Source: an uncultured delta proteobacterium (GTDB lineage: Bacteria > RBG-13-61-14 > DRUE01). Taken from it: a stretch of DNA of 21,852 nt. Below, in pieces: positions 9,620 through 16,627 of the stretch (positions are counted from its first letter, which is position 1; each line of letters begins with the position of its first letter). Both the position numbers and the translations under genes were made by a program. Under the pieces are notes generated by a model, which searched no databases, was not told the origin of the DNA, and saw only the letters and a list, made by a program, of their open reading frames with translations. The stretch is from contig CAIYYW010000146.1 in NCBI GenBank assembly GCA_903930515.1, forward strand, positions 1 to 21,852, read 5' to 3'.

Positions 9620-10990
9620 CTAATTCCCGCTTATTTCCAGGTCTTCCACCAGCAGGGAGGGCGAAGCGCAGTTGCCGATGAACCTGAGATCGCTCCCCGT
9701 CTCGCGCACCCGGCTGAATAAATCCCGGAGCGTGCCCGAAATCGCCACGCCGCTCACCGGCCCGCGGATTTTTCCTTGCTCGATCCAAAGTCCGGACGCT
9801 CCTACTGAGAACTCCCCGGAGATTTCATCCGCAGTGTGCATCCCCATGGTCTCCTTGATCAACATCCCGGAGCCGATCCCGGCGATCAACTCCTCCTGGC
9901 TCCTGCTCCCCGGCTCCAGATAAAAATTGCCCGGGCCGACCGTGGGCGGAACCGAGGCCTGCTCGCGCCGGGCGTTGGCGGTGGAGGGGGTATTGAATTT
10001 GCGGCCATAGTAGCTGTCAAACAAGAATCCTTCCACCACCCCTTTTTCAACCAGGACCTTTCTCCGGCCGGTTAAACCCTCGCTGTCAAAGGGGAAGCAA
10101 TCCGGGCCTTTCAGCAGCAGGCCGTTGTCAATAATGGTTACGGGTTCGGAAAAGATCTTCTTCCCCTGCTCTCCCCGGAGCCAAGTCTTGTTCTTGACCA
10201 GGTTCTCCCCGCTGAAAGCATAGCTCATCAACTCCAAAAATTCCCCCGCCACCTCCGGGCTGAAAATCACCGGCGCCTTGACGCTCTTGATCTGTTTTCC
10301 GCCCAGCTTGAGAATCGCTTTCTCCCCCGCTTTTTTCCCCACTTGATCAGGAGCGAGCATATCATATCGGAAGCTCCAGTCAAACTCCCAGGAAATCTGA
10401 GCCTCTTTTCCCTGCTCGGCCAGGGCGGAGGTGGACAGGTTGTAAATGGTGGACATCCCCTTCCGGTCCAAGCCGAAGGAATTGCGGATCCGGACCTCGC
10501 TCAAACCCTCGTTATACTGACATTCCCGAACCCGCTTGATCCGCGAATCAACCGCGTAGGCGTTTCTCTCCAAACGCATCGCCATCTGGATTTTTTCCTT
10601 CTCGCTCCTTCCCTCAAAACCAGGATCATAAATCCCCGGCAAGTCCGGGGCCGGCTCCGATCCCTCCGGGAAACCCAGGAACTGGTCCGGATCGGATTCC
10701 TTCATCCGCGAAAAAACTCCTTCCACCAATTCCTTCAATTGCTCCGGCCGAAAATCAGTGGCGTAGCCAAACCCCAGCCGATCCTGGCTGAGCACGCGCA
10801 GGGCCAAGCTCAGGTGGTCCTCCTGCTCGAACGATTCAACCTTCTGATCCCGAGCCTCCACCGCGCTCCCCTGCTCGCGCAAGAGATAAATCTCCCAGGC
10901 CGAAAGCGCGTATCCCTTCAGGCTCCGCGCCAGTTCCGCCATCAATTCCTCCGGCGTGATTTTGAGTTCCTGCTTCTTTTTCGTCAGCAT
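9620..10990 (-). CDS. pmbA: PmbA/TldE-type metalloprotease subunit
   Basis: A 456-residue protein of the TldD/PmbA family, known from the maturation of microcin and lasso-type peptides and the degradation of CcdA antitoxin. The zinc motif HExxxH of TldD subunits is absent, and the C-terminal GMHTADEISGEFSVGASGLWIEQG and SPSLLVEDLEISG are typical of the PmbA/TldE partner. PmbA normally works with TldD, which is not in the window. The ATG is preceded by AAAAGG at a five-base spacing. The first 55 bases of coding sequence plus the 15 bases upstream (10924-11005) are duplicated at 13522-13603. pmbA is separated from recN by the DUF1016/DUF262 insert but keeps its direction and probably once followed recN directly or closely. 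Confidence 0.9.
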   Translation of the reverse strand: MLTKKKQELKITPEELMAELARSLKGYALSAWEIYLLREQGSAVEARDQKVESFEQEDHLSLALRVLSQDRLGFGYATDFRPEQLKELVEGVFSRMKESDPDQFLGFPEGSEPAPDLPGIYDPGFEGRSEKEKIQMAMRLERNAYAVDSRIKRVRECQYNEGLSEVRIRNSFGLDRKGMSTIYNLSTSALAEQGKEAQISWEFDWSFRYDMLAPDQVGKKAGEKAILKLGGKQIKSVKAPVIFSPEVAGEFLELMSYAFSGENLVKNKTWLRGEQGKKIFSEPVTIIDNGLLLKGPDCFPFDSEGLTGRRKVLVEKGVVEGFLFDSYYGRKFNTPSTANARREQASVPPTVGPGNFYLEPGSRSQEELIAGIGSGMLIKETMGMHTADEISGEFSVGASGLWIEQGKIRGPVSGVAISGTLRDLFSRVRETGSDLRFIGNCASPSLLVEDLEISGN

Positions 10991-11050
10991 TTTTGCCTTT
11001 TCCCCTAAACTCAGAGCATAGATCTGCTCTCTGCCTTAGTTTCTGAGCGG

Positions 11051-12634
11051 TCACGTTAGGAATTCATTCAGCCTATTTGCCAATAATTTTAGACGCGCAG
11101 CAATGAAATCATCATACCGATCAACCAACCATAGCCTTTTATCCAACGGTATACACTGATCTTCAAGATCCTTTTTATTGATTCTCAATTTTTTTATGTA
11201 AGAAGCAGGCTCTTCCTTCAAAATTTCAAGATTGGTATCCTTGCTAATTATAGTGTAATTGGCGAAAGTATTTATTTTTTCAGAATAATATCCTTTTTTC
11301 AAAAGCAAAGCCTGAGGGAAAAAGTGATGCACTTGAAGTTCAGCGTTATGCCCAATTACGCTCCCATCCAAGGGATTGCGATTCTGCCAATCTCGGGCAT
11401 GGCAATTACGAAGCATGGAAATATACAGGGACATTGCCGCGCCCGTCTTTCTACGGGTCTCAAAATGATAAGGCTTGATTTTGCCCGTCTCTCTTCTGGT
11501 CAGGTTAATCAATTTTTGGATCGTGGGCTTTTTGCCTAATCCGCGAAGAATTCGATCAAGTTCACTGTAAACCGCGCCACTAAAGACAGCATGAATATTG
11601 GCCGCCAGCAACCAATTACGCGCCTTCCTGCGTTCTGATGCGGTCAATTTCCTGCGGGAAAACAGATAGACTAAAGGGATGATTGAATTGATGGAAGGTA
11701 ATAAAGTATCTGAATCCCATTTAACAGAGCCGGTCAGAAATTCGATTGTGCGGCCAAGGCCAATTTCCGTTTTTTTCCATGATTTTCTTATGGCCTTTTC
11801 CTTGCCGGTCCAGATATCTTTTGGTTTCTTCAATTTCATTTTTCCTGTGTAGTTAGCCGCCAAACATTGGATTAAAAAGGGCGTGCTGAAGCAGAAGCGG
11901 GGCGCAAATCTATGGCAAGCTCTGTTTATGCTATTTGAAACCAATTCTGGAACACTTAAAGCAAGTTCTGCGGCAATCAGATCCATCCCTTTTAGTTTCT
12001 TTCCGGTTGAATTGAATCGTATAAAAAGCTCGGTCGCTTTTCGATAATGGTTATCCTCGTACTCTATAACACCCACTTCATAATCCATAATTGCTTGTAA
12101 TCTGCTGGCGCTGGCCAGGATGTTATTAGAGTCTTTTTCGGAATCGAAATCCGTGCCTTCTTTACGCACCCTTTCAAGTAATTCATAAGGCTGCGCCTCT
12201 CCATTTATGATATCGGCAACCGGAACAAACCAAGGATTATCCGAGGTCCAGGATGATCGCCAAGAAAAACGTCCTTCATCCGGGCCATCATCTTGAGGAT
12301 ACAATGCAAACATTAGAGGATAGTTTTCATCGCCATCCTTAACTAGTTTGATGGCGGTAAGGCGCTGTTGGCCATCAAGAAGATAGCCATAAAAGCTATC
12401 AATATTCTGGCCGACTTTTCTCTTTATCTTTCCTTTAAACATTTTGCGGCCCACCTCACTTTTTGCCTTCCAAACCAGCATGTATCCAATCGGAAGGCCC
12501 CGATATAAAGAATCGAATAGCAGCAGGACATTATTTCGATTCCAAACGAAGTCTCTCTGAATCTCGGGCAAAGCTAATTCACCTGAGTCCATCAGTTCCA
12601 ACATTGTTTTTAAGCTTTTACTATTTGCGCCCAT
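11051..12634 (-). CDS. DUF262 and HNH nuclease protein (GmrSD-like)
   Basis: A 527-residue protein. The N-terminal DUF262 (GmrS-type, ParB/Srx-like NTPase fold) has ALPEIQRDFVW at 21-31, LLDGQQRLTAIK at 85-96 and FIRFNSTGKKL. The C-terminal part has an HNH-type nuclease motif, VHHFFP with H436-H437 followed by NTFANYTIISKDTNLEI, as in DUF1524. Proteins of this type include the modified-DNA-specific restriction enzyme GmrSD and phage-defence proteins; that this one restricts phage DNA is inference. The ATG has a strong GGAAGGAG seven bases upstream. The gene is clearly AT-richer than recN or pmbA (about 40% GC in sampled lines), a sign of transfer. The sequence before its start preserves the last codons of a lost DUF1016 gene, and its own 5' end is duplicated at 13605-13761. 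Confidence 0.85.
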   Translation of the reverse strand: MGANSKSLKTMLELMDSGELALPEIQRDFVWNRNNVLLLFDSLYRGLPIGYMLVWKAKSEVGRKMFKGKIKRKVGQNIDSFYGYLLDGQQRLTAIKLVKDGDENYPLMFALYPQDDGPDEGRFSWRSSWTSDNPWFVPVADIINGEAQPYELLERVRKEGTDFDSEKDSNNILASASRLQAIMDYEVGVIEYEDNHYRKATELFIRFNSTGKKLKGMDLIAAELALSVPELVSNSINRACHRFAPRFCFSTPFLIQCLAANYTGKMKLKKPKDIWTGKEKAIRKSWKKTEIGLGRTIEFLTGSVKWDSDTLLPSINSIIPLVYLFSRRKLTASERRKARNWLLAANIHAVFSGAVYSELDRILRGLGKKPTIQKLINLTRRETGKIKPYHFETRRKTGAAMSLYISMLRNCHARDWQNRNPLDGSVIGHNAELQVHHFFPQALLLKKGYYSEKINTFANYTIISKDTNLEILKEEPASYIKKLRINKKDLEDQCIPLDKRLWLVDRYDDFIAARLKLLANRLNEFLT

Positions 12635-12717
12635 CTTTTACTCCTTCCGGATATTGACAACTATTTTTCATCTTCTTTTTGGAATTTTGTTTTTTCGCTG
12701 GTCCGCAACTCCTTGCT

Positions 12718-12742
12718 ATTTCGCAGATGGCATCTGCGAAAT
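12718..12742. repeat. 25-bp perfect palindrome at a recombination edge
   Basis: Two 12-base arms, ATTTCGCAGATG and CATCTGCGAAAT, flank a single G. The palindrome begins exactly where sequence shared with the second DUF262 5' copy (13641-13761) ends, so it marks the edge of a replaced segment. It is not followed by a T run on either strand that would make it a simple terminator. Confidence 0.7.
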
Positions 12743-12775: not shown

Positions 12776-13408
12776 CTATGATGTTACTCCCTTTTCGAGC
12801 TTTTGGGTTTCTGTCAGCCGTTTGACGGTACGCGAACCCTCCTGACGAACTGTCAAGTATTCCTTGACCGTTGCCGTGCGGCCTTGGATCTGGAGCGCCA
12901 GGATATTTCGGCTCCAGCCCTGTTCAACGGTCTTGCGGGCATACCAGAGGCGGTCCTCCGCAGGGCTCAGTTTCTCCAGCAGAGTCAGGTTGTGATACCA
13001 GGTGATTTGTGCAAGCGTCCCTTGCACAATTGCCCGATCGGGCCAGGCCGCGGCAAAGGCGCGCATATATTTAAGATTGCGGGGTGATAATCCCTGCATT
13101 TCGGGAAAAGATACCCAGAGGTCCGATGACAACCGGTCAATAATCCGGGCGCCCCAGCCCTCGCGGTCCTGCCGCTCCAGGATCATCCGCCCAATATCCC
13201 AGTAGAGCAGCACCATGGCCGAGTTCGCCGCCATAACCGTGCGCAGCCGCTCGGTCTGAATCCGGCGCTTGATCTCGCCCAGAACCTGAGCGTAACCGCC
13301 CGGCAAACCCGGACGGGGACCAGCCGCGGGAAATATGGCTTCCTTGCGTTGGCGTCCCCGCGCCAGCCGTTCTTCCCCGCCAGCGCGTCCTTTTGCTTTA
13401 GCCGCCAT
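12776..13408 (-). CDS. truncated DUF1016 (YhcG N-terminal domain) protein
   Basis: A 210-residue product. Residues about 40-180 match the DUF1016 N-terminal helical/winged domain: YAQVLGEIKRRI, VLLYWDIGRMILERQ, LSPRNLKYMRAFAAAWP, ITWYHNLTLLEKL and RLWYARKTVEQGWSRNILALQI. A full DUF1016 protein continues with a PDDEXK nuclease domain of about 150 residues, which is missing. The last residues, TATVKEYLTVRQEGSRTVKRLTE, instead recall RhuM/KilA-type proteins, suggesting an in-frame fusion of two broken genes. The ATG has GGAG eight bases upstream. The GC content is high, unlike the adjacent DUF262 gene, and the protein is far from the DUF1016 copy at 13718-14932, so the two are not recent duplicates. 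Without its nuclease domain it is probably a pseudogene or a binding-only protein. Confidence 0.65.
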   Translation of the reverse strand: MAAKAKGRAGGEERLARGRQRKEAIFPAAGPRPGLPGGYAQVLGEIKRRIQTERLRTVMAANSAMVLLYWDIGRMILERQDREGWGARIIDRLSSDLWVSFPEMQGLSPRNLKYMRAFAAAWPDRAIVQGTLAQITWYHNLTLLEKLSPAEDRLWYARKTVEQGWSRNILALQIQGRTATVKEYLTVRQEGSRTVKRLTETQKLEKGVTS

Positions 13409-13432
13409 ATCCCAACTCCGCCGTCTTTAATC

Positions 13433-13535
13433 GCCAACCGGACTTTTTCATTTCTGGCTATCCTCCAGCATCTCCCGCGCGTACGCCCTAGTCTTGTCCG
13501 TGATCTTGATCCCGCCCAGCATCCGCGCCAGTTCC
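13433..13535 (-). repeat. duplicated 3' end of recN
   Basis: This 103-base segment matches the native recN end at 14951-15053 with two visible differences. It keeps the codons from ELAR-type residues through TDKTRAYAREMLEDSQK, the TGA stop and about 17 bases beyond. It is out of place and fused to a pmbA fragment at the shared 14 bases TCCGCGCCAGTTCC (13522-13535). Confidence 0.9.
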
Positions 13536-13684
13536 GCCATCAATTCTTCCGGCGTGATTTTGAGTTCCTGCTTCTTTTTCGTCAGCATTTTTGCCTTTTC
13601 CCCGCCAGCATGTATCCAATCGGAAGGCCCCGATATAAAGATCAGTTCCAACAATGCTTTTAAGCTTTTGCTATTTGCGCCCAT
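13448..13684 (-). pseudogene. chimeric remnant ORF: DUF262 start, pmbA start, recN end
   Basis: A 78-codon reading frame built from three genes. It starts like the DUF262 gene (MGANSKSLK, with the same GGAAGGAG ribosome site), passes out of frame through a second scrap of DUF262, then enters pmbA's first residues in frame (MLTKKKQELKITPEELMAELAR). It finishes with recN's last residues (GGIKITDKTRAYAREMLEDSQK) and recN's stop. It is a by-product of rearrangement rather than a functional gene, although it keeps a good ribosome site and could be translated. It lies between the two DUF1016 genes. Confidence 0.85.
13522..13603 (-). repeat. duplicated 5' end of pmbA
   Basis: These 82 bases match 10924-11005, the pmbA start and its ribosome site, with one visible difference (CAATTCT against CAATTCC). 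The copy ends at GGGG just before pmbA's ribosome site and then jumps into the DUF262 interior. Both source sites contain a T-rich run ending in TTTTTGCCTT, a possible deletion microhomology. Confidence 0.9.
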
Positions 13685-13761
13685 CTTTTACTCCTTCCGG
13701 ATATTGACAACTATTTTTCATCTTCTTTTAGAGTTTTGTTGGCCGCTGCGCAACTCCTTGC
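13605..13761 (-). repeat. decayed second copy of the DUF262 5' region
   Basis: Two blocks match the intact DUF262 gene: 13605-13640 equals 12475-12510 (codons around GLPIGYMLV), and 13641-13761 equals about 12591-12716 (the first 14-15 codons, ribosome site and upstream DNA). The 80 bases between them in the intact gene and everything after about codon 53 are deleted here. A few base differences show that the copies have had time to diverge. The copy includes the end of the DUF1016 gene at 13718, so that gene once led directly into a DUF262 gene 33 bases away. Confidence 0.88.
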
Positions 13762-14932
13762 TTTTACCTTTTCGGTTTCCGGGTTGAGCCTTCCTTAAGG
13801 GGGGTGGCTCCCATTCTTCCACATCGGTCCATTCCATTAGTTTTTGTTTGAACTCCGCTTTGGAGGGCAGATACAATTTATACTCGGAAGCAAAGACATT
13901 GGCGTTTTTGGGCAGGGTTAGTTCCACCAGCGCCCTATTTTTCATTTTGCAGAGGACGATGCCGATGGTGGGATTCTCTCCGCCGGATCGGATATGACGG
14001 TCGAAGTAATTAACATACATTTGCATTTGGCCCAAATCCTGGTGGGTGAGCTTGCCGATCTTGAGATCAATCAGGATGTAGGACCGGAGCAGACGGTTAT
14101 AGAAGACCAGATCGACAAAGTAGTGCTCTTCTTCAAAGGTGAACCTTTTCTGGCGGGCTTCAAAGAGAAAGCCTTTGCCGAGTTCAAGGAGGAAGTGTTC
14201 AAGTTTGCTGATGATGGCGGTCTCGAGATCGGTTTCGGAATAATTGGTTTGCTCATCCAGTCCGAGGAACTCCAATACATAAGGTTCTTTGAGCAGGTCG
14301 CGAGGCTGGGTAACCAGTTGTCCCTTCCGGGCGAGTTCCCGGATCCCTTTCCGGTCTCGGCTCAAGGCCAGCCGTTCAAAAAGACCGGAGTTAAACTGGC
14401 GTTTGAATTCCCGCAAGGACCATGCCTGACTGGCGGCCTCGATTTCGTAGAAACTGCGCTCTCCCGGATTCTCGATTCCCATCAAAAACACATAATGCGA
14501 CCAGGAGAGGGTGAATTTCCGAAACGGCGCTTCATAAATCTGATTTTTCGCCAACGGCGCCAATTGGTCAGACGGTGTCTGACCGATTCGGGAAGGCGGC
14601 AATTGGCCAGACGGTGTCTGACCGATTCGGTCCTGGTTTATGAAGTAAAATTGGCGCATCAGTTTGAGATTGGTCAGAGAAAAACCTTTGCCGAATTCGA
14701 TCATAAGCTTTTCGGAAAGCGCCTTGAGAATCTGTTTGCCGTATCCCGCCCGGCTGGAGCCTCGTTGTTCGTGTTCCACGATCCGGCGACCGATCTCATA
14801 GTTGGTCACGACTTGAACGGTGTCCACACTGCGGTAGGCCGCTTTTCGCGCGGAAACGATCAACTCCCGGACCTGATGAAACAGGCCGCTGATTTCACTC
14901 ACCGTTGGGTCCTGTCTCCGGCTGTAGGTCAA
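13718..14932 (-). CDS. DUF1016 / PDDEXK nuclease family protein (YhcG-like)
   Basis: A 404-residue complete member. The N-terminal DUF1016 domain covers about residues 10-170 (NYEIGRRIVEHEQRG, SLTNLKLMRQFYF, LSWSHYVFLMGIENPGERSFYEIEAA). The C-terminal PDDEXK nuclease domain covers about 240-365, with E250, D274 in YFVDLVFYN and D289-L-K291 in LIDLKIGK. Family members occur in defence islands and alongside restriction systems; the biochemical role is poorly defined. A 13-residue tandem repeat (RIGQTPSGQLPPS, RIGQTPSDQLAPL) interrupts the N-terminal domain. The start is a TTG without a clear ribosome site; GTG a few codons later (VSEIS) is an alternative. The basic tail (KSKELRSGQQNSKRR) is encoded in DNA shared with the region before the intact DUF262 gene. 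Confidence 0.85.
   Translation of the reverse strand: MTYSRRQDPTVSEISGLFHQVRELIVSARKAAYRSVDTVQVVTNYEIGRRIVEHEQRGSSRAGYGKQILKALSEKLMIEFGKGFSLTNLKLMRQFYFINQDRIGQTPSGQLPPSRIGQTPSDQLAPLAKNQIYEAPFRKFTLSWSHYVFLMGIENPGERSFYEIEAASQAWSLREFKRQFNSGLFERLALSRDRKGIRELARKGQLVTQPRDLLKEPYVLEFLGLDEQTNYSETDLETAIISKLEHFLLELGKGFLFEARQKRFTFEEEHYFVDLVFYNRLLRSYILIDLKIGKLTHQDLGQMQMYVNYFDRHIRSGGENPTIGIVLCKMKNRALVELTLPKNANVFASEYKLYLPSKAEFKQKLMEWTDVEEWEPPPLRKAQPGNRKGKSKELRSGQQNSKRR
14553..14630. repeat. 39-bp tandem repeat with palindromic core inside the DUF1016 gene
   Basis: Two nearly identical 39-base units (14553-14591 and 14592-14630) encode RIGQTPSGQLPPS and RIGQTPSDQLAPL. Each contains GTCAGAC or CCAGAC, GGT and GTCTGACC; in the first unit GGTCAGAC-GGT-GTCTGACC is a perfect eight-base inverted repeat. 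The unit length is a multiple of three, so the frame is kept. Confidence 0.85.
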
Positions 14933-14965
14933 ATGCGGTTATTTTAAGCTGCCAACCGGACTTTT

Positions 14966-16627
14966 TCATTTCTGGCTATCCTCCAGCATCTCCCGCGCGT
15001 ACGCCCTGGTCTTGTCCGTGATCTTGATCCCGCCCATCATCCGCGCCAGTTCCTCCACCCGCTCCTCCGATCCCAAGTTTTTTATCCGGGTCACCGCGCG
15101 GCTCTTCTCCGTTTGTTTCCAGACATAAAAATGACGGTCCGCGAACCTTGCGATCTGGGCCAGATGGGTAACGCATAAAACCTGGTTCTTGCGCGAAAGC
15201 TCCTTCAGCTTCTTCCCCACCACTTCGGCCACCGCCCCTCCGATCCCGGCGTCCACCTCGTCAAAAATCATCACGGCCGCCCCGGACTTGCCGGCCAGGA
15301 TCCCGCGCAAGGCCAGCATAATCCGGCTCAACTCGCCCCCGGAGGCGATTTTGGAAAGCGGTTTCAACTCCTCTCCCGGGTTGGGAGAGATGAAAAATTC
15401 CGCCTGGTCCGATCCCTCGGGACCGGGTTCGGGCATTTTTTCAAAATTGACCTCGAACCGGCATTTCTCCATCCCCAGTTCCTTGAGCAACTGCTCCATC
15501 TGGCGGGACAAAGTTTTGGCCTGGGATTTTCTTTCCTTGCTTAAACCCTCGGCCAGCTTGAGCAAATCCTGCTTTTTCCCCGCCAGCTTTTGCTCCAGCT
15601 CCGCGCTCCTGGATTCGTAATTAGCCAGGCTTTCCAGCTCGTTCCTGCTTGATTCCGCCAATTCCATCAGCGCCTTGATCTCCAATTGATATTTCCGCTT
15701 CAGCCTCCGGATGTCGGCCAGCCGGTCAGAAAGCTCCTCCAGCCTCCGCGGGTCAGCGTCCAACCCGCGCAGGTAGTTCCCGACTTCCGCGCCCGTCTCT
15801 TCCACTATTGCCCGGGCCTCGGAAAGGTTTTTCGCCAGCCCGCTTAATTTCGGGTCGAACTTGCCGGCCTTTTCCAGCTCAGCCTGAATCCGCGCCATTT
15901 TTTCGGCAATGGACCCGTCCTGGTTATACAGCTCCTGAAAAGACAGCTCCGCGGCCTGGCGCAGGGTCTCGCTATGCTTGAGCCGCTCCCGCTCCAGCTC
16001 CAGTTCCTCTTCTTCCCCTGCTTTAAGGTTGGCCCGTTCCAGTTCGGAAATACGGAATTGTAAAAAATCCACCCGCTCCTTCCGCTCCTGCTCGCTCATC
16101 CGGGTCTTTTCATATTCCTGCGCCTGGATTTGATAGTCCCGGTAAAACTGCCGGTAGCTCCCAAGCTCCTGCTCCAGCGATGCGTATCCATCCAGCAATT
16201 CCAAATGCTGTTCCGCCCGGAGCAAAGTCTGATACTCGTGCTGGCCGTAAATGTCCACCAGCTTCCGGCCCAACTGGTATAGAAGCGAAATCGGGCTGGA
16301 TCGGGAATTGATCCAGCCCCGGCTTTTTCCCGGGACCGAAACCTGGCGCCGCAAAATGACTTCCGGGTCCGAGACGCCTTGCTCAAGCAGGAAATTTTTC
16401 AACTCCGCTTCCGGATCAATTTCAAAAACCGCCTCCACTTCCGCGTTCTCCGCTCCGGTGCGCACCTGGTCGGAGTCGGCTTTTCCGCCGATGGCCAGGA
16501 TCAGGGCGTCAATCAGGATGGATTTACCCGCCCCGGTCTCTCCGCTCAAGACCGTGAACCCGGGCGTGAATTCCACTTCCACTCGGTCAATGATGGCGAA
16601 ATTTTCCACCCGGATCCGGCTGAGCAT
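14966..16627 (-). CDS. recN: DNA repair protein RecN
   Basis: RecN is an SMC-like ATPase that holds broken DNA ends and sister chromosomes together during double-strand break repair. The 553 residues show Walker A GETGAGKS at 29-36, a long coiled-coil arm region (about 150-370), the ABC signature SGGELS near 429-434, Walker B IFDEVDAGIGG with D456-E457, and CVTHLAQIA. The ATG directly follows the nadK stop (TAA then ATG, no spacing), the usual nadK-recN arrangement, so the two are co-transcribed. Its last 100 bases are duplicated at 13433-13535. Between its stop and the DUF1016 start there are only 33 bases. Confidence 0.97.
   Translation of the reverse strand: MLSRIRVENFAIIDRVEVEFTPGFTVLSGETGAGKSILIDALILAIGGKADSDQVRTGAENAEVEAVFEIDPEAELKNFLLEQGVSDPEVILRRQVSVPGKSRGWINSRSSPISLLYQLGRKLVDIYGQHEYQTLLRAEQHLELLDGYASLEQELGSYRQFYRDYQIQAQEYEKTRMSEQERKERVDFLQFRISELERANLKAGEEEELELERERLKHSETLRQAAELSFQELYNQDGSIAEKMARIQAELEKAGKFDPKLSGLAKNLSEARAIVEETGAEVGNYLRGLDADPRRLEELSDRLADIRRLKRKYQLEIKALMELAESSRNELESLANYESRSAELEQKLAGKKQDLLKLAEGLSKERKSQAKTLSRQMEQLLKELGMEKCRFEVNFEKMPEPGPEGSDQAEFFISPNPGEELKPLSKIASGGELSRIMLALRGILAGKSGAAVMIFDEVDAGIGGAVAEVVGKKLKELSRKNQVLCVTHLAQIARFADRHFYVWKQTEKSRAVTRIKNLGSEERVEELARMMGGIKITDKTRAYAREMLEDSQK

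Follow-up and report, generated by a model that had tools for sequence, protein, structure and literature searches.

The 171-base fused segment at 13433-13603 of the window (the whole stretch of 21,852 nt analysed, in its own coordinates) is very probably a duplication join point, a scar to which no function is assigned. It would have been left by unequal exchange between recN-cargo-pmbA arrangements at a 14-bp identity, with later decay. The segment consists of a copy of the recN end (recN′) fused to a copy of the pmbA start (pmbA′), between two units of cargo. The features are given below in minus-strand order, followed by the short sequences and the open frame that bear on the join.

14966-16627, minus strand: recN, intact native copy (Pfam SMC_N/AAA; 76% identity to the same-genus recN)
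13718-14932, minus strand: DUF1016-A, intact, YhcG-type, DUF1016_N plus PDDEXK nuclease domain (PF17761 and PF06250; PADLOC PDC-S02)
13604-13684, minus strand: DUF262 remnant of the first unit (repeat finder and alignment to the intact DUF262)
13522-13603, minus strand: pmbA′, the pmbA start and 15 bp upstream (1 difference in 82 bases from 10924-11005)
13433-13535, minus strand: recN′, the last ~29 codons, the stop and ~15 bp beyond (2 differences in 103 bases from 14951-15053)
12776-13408, minus strand: DUF1016-B, DUF1016_N domain alone, without the nuclease domain (PF17761 only)
12690-12720, minus strand: relic of a DUF1016-A 3′ end, ahead of the intact DUF262 (81% to 13735-13765; 88% over 12591-12720)
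11051-12634, minus strand: DUF262 (GmrSD_N), intact (PF03235; PADLOC HEC-05/PDC-M55C; 42% G+C)
9620-10990, minus strand: pmbA, TldD/PmbA metallopeptidase, intact native copy (Pfam PF19289, PF19290, PF01523)
13522-13535, no strand: crossover interval, the 14-bp identity (motif search of the window)
15040-15053, no strand: the 14-bp identity TCCGCGCCAGTTCC inside native recN (motif search of the window)
10924-10937, no strand: the 14-bp identity TCCGCGCCAGTTCC inside native pmbA (motif search of the window)
13448-13684, minus strand: 78-codon open frame over the DUF262 start, pmbA′ and recN′ (ORF list)

The Fused Segment and Its Switch Point

The sequence-only reading had described 13433-13535 as a repeat of the recN end and 13522-13603 as a repeat of the pmbA start, and coordinates and identities alike were confirmed. 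In both the repeat-finder and the BLAST output, 13433-13551 pairs with 14951-15069 and 13522-13603 with 10924-11005. Considering that the own-genome BLAST E-values were 1e-46 for the recN part and 3e-35 for the pmbA part, a chance origin of the flank copies was ruled out. The changeover from the recN copy to the pmbA copy falls exactly on TCCGCGCCAGTTCC, which is common to both native sites, as had been proposed; it is present in exactly 3 copies in the window (10924, 13522, and 15040), with 0 expected in 100 shuffles. That some 14-bp identity exists between recN and pmbA is only mildly unusual, since a second exact match of 15 bp was found elsewhere in the two genes and codon shuffles gave a match of at least 14 in 8 of 300 cases; the weight lies in the switch falling on it. 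Along the minus strand pmbA′ comes before recN′, so that at the join the distal end of the first unit is followed by the proximal start of the second.

When the fused segment was sought elsewhere in its own genome and in two relatives, only short chance matches were obtained. The 41-bp exact junction pattern was not found in IMG/VR, and the phylum-wide search (three genomes) returned the junction from its own genome only. It was also possible to see an in-frame pmbA′-recN′ fusion in the inner 46 codons, counted from the pmbA ATG, of the 78-codon frame, whose residues 42-74 weakly match TIGR00634 recN. This 46-codon frame is putative only, and nothing indicates its use or expression.

Organization of the Two Units

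The first unit, next to recN, contains DUF1016-A, with an alternative GTG start near 14905, and what is left of a DUF262 gene. Positions 13641-13729 match 12591-12679 at 97% over 89 bp, which is a duplication of the DUF262 start and its upstream region, and 13605-13641 is identical to 12475-12511, a piece of 37 bp of internal DUF262 sequence. The remnant has an 80-bp deletion at 13641, with a 1-bp overlap and a frameshift, and a deletion of 1,469 bp, with one filler base at 13604, that reaches pmbA′. Since the start, the upstream region, and the internal piece persist around two deletions, the alignments indicate that this unit once had the full DUF262 gene. With the deletions restored its length is ~3.07 kb (1,518 + 80 + 1,469), and the second unit measures 2,598 bp.

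In the second unit, next to pmbA, the bases just downstream of the recN′ stop are not the same as those that follow native recN, and the DUF1016-B ORF starts directly after recN′. The DUF1016-A and DUF1016-B proteins share 24% identity over ~160 aa; what is present twice between the sites is the DUF262 start, the upstream region, and the A-like tail. The last ~40 codons of DUF1016-B are a RhuM relic (RhuM being PF13310): residues 168-205 match the same-genus RhuM at 63%, and 12818-12883 has 91% DNA identity to L002:965-1030, which lies in the RhuM gene of the same-genus recN-pmbA interval. Taking into account this DNA match, and that the other RhuM genes in these genomes show only 47-52% protein identity to the RhuM of that interval, the relic is probably the ortholog of the same-genus RhuM at the same site. 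The order recN, DUF1016, DUF262 remnant, junction, DUF1016, DUF262, pmbA, which had been read from the letters, was confirmed, and its DUF262 pair is real; the two DUF1016 genes, however, are not copies of each other, the second being without the YhcG nuclease domain.

At the start of DUF1016-B, 18 bases (13402-13419; on the minus strand GAGTTGGGATATGGCGG plus one neighbouring base) are identical to L043:3540-3557, on the own-genome contig C190. This match is the start of an hsdS-like gene, downstream of hsdM and a DUF1016 gene, and it is possible that the identity is the trace of an exchange between defence loci.

Comparison with Related Genomes and Age of the Join

The comparison was carried out among three genomes of the phylum: the own genome, one of the same genus, and one of the same order. 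In the same-order genome, RBG_13_61_14, recN and pmbA overlap at TTGA with no cargo between them, and pmbA itself begins at the recN stop overlap. By this arrangement, the cargo of the recN-pmbA interval is an insertion. The G+C content is 57.5% for recN and pmbA and 42% for the DUF262 gene.

The same-genus contig CAIUDS010000233.1, from a sediment MAG, has recN, relics of the DUF1016-A start and linker, RhuM, and the first pmbA codons before it ends. The A-head relic is 82% identical over 195 bp, including recN, and the A-linker relic 85% over 52 bp. This suggests that DUF1016-A was once also in the same-genus interval, and both cargo types, A and RhuM, appear from these matches to be old at the recN-pmbA site. 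The sequence-only reading had expected some relatives to have a single DUF1016-DUF262 pair or no insert; of the two relatives, the same-order genome has no insert and the same-genus one carries a different cargo.

The end of the same-genus contig falls in pmbA, two bases within this 14-bp identity (L002:1-12). The rest of this pmbA was not found in its bin, and neither was a second recN end; the same-genus recN differs inside the 14-mer. The contig end is suggestive of an assembly branch, and considering the different 14-mer and the single recN end in the bin, no conclusion is drawn from it.

The few base differences had been taken as an argument against a very recent event, and the comparison agrees with this. 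The copies are ~98% identical (~2% diverged), and the same recN stretch shows 86% identity to the same-genus recN. Since the divergence of the copies is far below that one, the join is, by these identities, younger than the same-genus split, yet not very recent. The one recN amino-acid difference is ATG in native recN and CTG in recN′; as the same-genus recN also has CTG, it was probably native recN that changed and not the copy. The same-genus genome has the base of the native gene at the recN C/T and pmbA G/A differences, which indicates a change in the copy. This outgroup polarity fits a duplication that then acquired a few private mutations.

An ATG overlaps the stop codon of recN (ATGA). 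The bases that follow (14920-14968; L002:1350-1400) show a weak resemblance to the same-genus pmbA start; in nine comparisons, three stretches related to one another each had a random-window p of ~0.002-0.003. This DNA may be a remnant of the original start of pmbA, dating from the first entry of cargo. We keep it as a lead only, because in the second unit part of the resemblance is the 18-bp match to the start of the hsdS-like gene elsewhere in the genome and because the ATGAAAAAG shared in the comparison is a common sequence.

Origin of the Join and Rival Readings

The direct observations are the copies, the switch point, the deletions, the mosaic cargo, the empty site of the same-order genome, and the same-genus RhuM gene with its A-like relics. 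From these we infer the exchange mechanism, the succession of events and their direction. One molecule or sister chromosome with recN-cargo-pmbA would recombine unequally with another, and the exchange would link the pmbA start, in the region of codon 22, to the end of recN through the chance 14-bp identity. The product would be recN - cargo 1 - pmbA′/recN′ - cargo 2 - pmbA, where both flanking genes remain intact. Cargo 1 (DUF1016-A and DUF262) would later lose most of DUF262 by two near-homology-free deletions. Cargo 2 (the other DUF1016 with the RhuM relic, the A-like tail, and the intact DUF262) would come from a different allele or strain, or would have been remodelled after the duplication.

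A short-homology tandem duplication with later decay fits the flanks because of the flank copies, the switch at the 14 bp, the DUF262 start present twice, and the two deletions. The tandem duplication of the cargo that had been proposed is thereby upheld as to junction, order, switch, and the duplicated DUF262 start with its deletions, but the cargo was not duplicated whole, given the different DUF1016 with the RhuM relic and the A-like tail being short. As not all the cargo genes are duplicates, one-allele duplication alone is insufficient, and a later replacement in the second unit is therefore needed to obtain two different DUF1016 genes. Two cargo versions were probably joined, either by between-strain unequal exchange or by duplication and then cargo replacement.

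The heteroallelic case, in which the exchange took place between the loci of two strains, recN-A-DUF262-pmbA and recN-B/RhuM-DUF262-pmbA, for example after DNA uptake, has about an even chance of being correct. The cargoes would have differed from the outset, and a single step would yield different DUF1016 genes with near-identical flanks. It is consistent with the unlike post-stop sequences of recN′ and native recN, and with the probable orthology of the RhuM relic to the RhuM of the same-genus interval, where the A-head and A-linker relics are found too; no strain with the B/RhuM allele alone is known, however, and duplication followed by gene replacement reaches the same end state. The homoallelic case, where recN′-A-DUF262-pmbA′ was duplicated in tandem in one genome and B/RhuM then replaced A in the second unit, is a more tentative possibility. 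The A-like tail ahead of the intact DUF262 argues for it, as unit 2 would once have had an A-like gene upstream; against it, a separate replacement is needed, with endpoints close to recN′ and to the A tail, and this tail, at 81%, has diverged further than the rest. Since the relics suggest that A and RhuM cargo were both in the recN-pmbA interval of the genus, the exchange between alleles is somewhat more likely than one-allele duplication with replacement.

It is unlikely that the recN end and pmbA start are a recurrent exchange point in this lineage, at which strains stack different defence-like cargo units between the two genes by repeated unequal exchange on this coding-sequence match and where the same-genus contig breaks from a junction of its own. 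A chimeric contig, built from contigs of two strains or from collapsed repeats, is also improbable. The genome is a draft of 401 contigs, and since the same-genus contig ends at this 14-bp site, two bases within it, assemblies may break here. Nevertheless, short-read assembler word sizes are normally longer than 14 bp; misassembly is unlikely because the identity is below them and the copies have private base differences. The region also has two private deletions and no N runs. Site-specific integration, with the 14-bp motif as attachment core and unit 1 as an integrated circular element carrying pmbA′-recN′, is very improbable. It would presumably give the same end product topologically, but the cargo ORFs include no integrase or recombinase, the motif belongs to the coding sequence of recN and of pmbA and is inexact in the same-genus recN, and there is no reason for such an element to bring along the ends of both flanking genes. 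A recombinase gene or paired attachment sites, as expected of an integrase-type island insertion, were sought at the cargo and were not found.

Relation to Known Duplications and Nature of the Cargo

Duplication junctions with short homology or none are well documented in bacteria. Junctions with 0-5 bp of identity have been described in the cat amplification of Acinetobacter (PMC9997567), the pneumococcal patAB duplication has 2 bp of identity at its junction (PMC4432121), and duplications with designed 9-bp borders have been made in bacteria (PMC11111574). An identity of 14 bp could plausibly serve the same short-homology process. The recN-pmbA scar resembles these joins (PMC9997567, PMC4432121, PMC11111574) in the end-of-unit/start-of-unit order, the very short shared sequence, and the intact flanking genes. 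Unlike them, it is natural, old, and ~2% diverged, with 14 bp versus 0-9 bp; its first unit is partly deleted and the cargo of the two units is different.

The locus is also similar to hot spots of turnover of defence-like genes, with variable DUF1016/YhcG, DUF262/GmrSD_N, and RhuM between two conserved genes and differing among relatives, although here the comparison covers three genomes of the phylum and the defence role is a family-level guess from PADLOC candidate models. The candidate defence families in the cargo are PDC-S02, HEC-05, and PDC-M55C, and by family the cargo is probably a set of candidate anti-phage genes. A search for a conserved DUF1016-DUF262 pairing, in ~1.5 kb on each side of each of four distant DUF262 relatives (one flank of one locus was shorter) from 290 genomes, gave no convincing DUF1016, the best tblastn E-value being 0.48. 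The neighbourhoods of distant relatives thus do not support a paired DUF1016 and DUF262 anti-phage system.

The short-homology tandem join is real and decayed; it lies in a hot spot for cargo, at a mildly informative locus, and is of an ordinary kind. It is a clear natural case, with flanks that can be dated against relatives and cargo that differs between the units, and it illustrates one route for defence-like gene blocks to accumulate beside core genes without a recombinase; the general understanding of bacterial duplications is unchanged.

Two minor features were seen in the cargo. Between the RhuM relic and the tail relic of DUF1016-A there is a 25-bp near-perfect palindrome (12718-12742; opposite-strand BLAST self-match of 96%). 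Inside DUF1016-A, 14556-14630 contains a tandem repeat with a unit of 36 bp (94%, 39-bp spacing) that codes for a linker with two RIGQTPS motifs, and a piece similar to this repeat persists beside recN in the same-genus genome.
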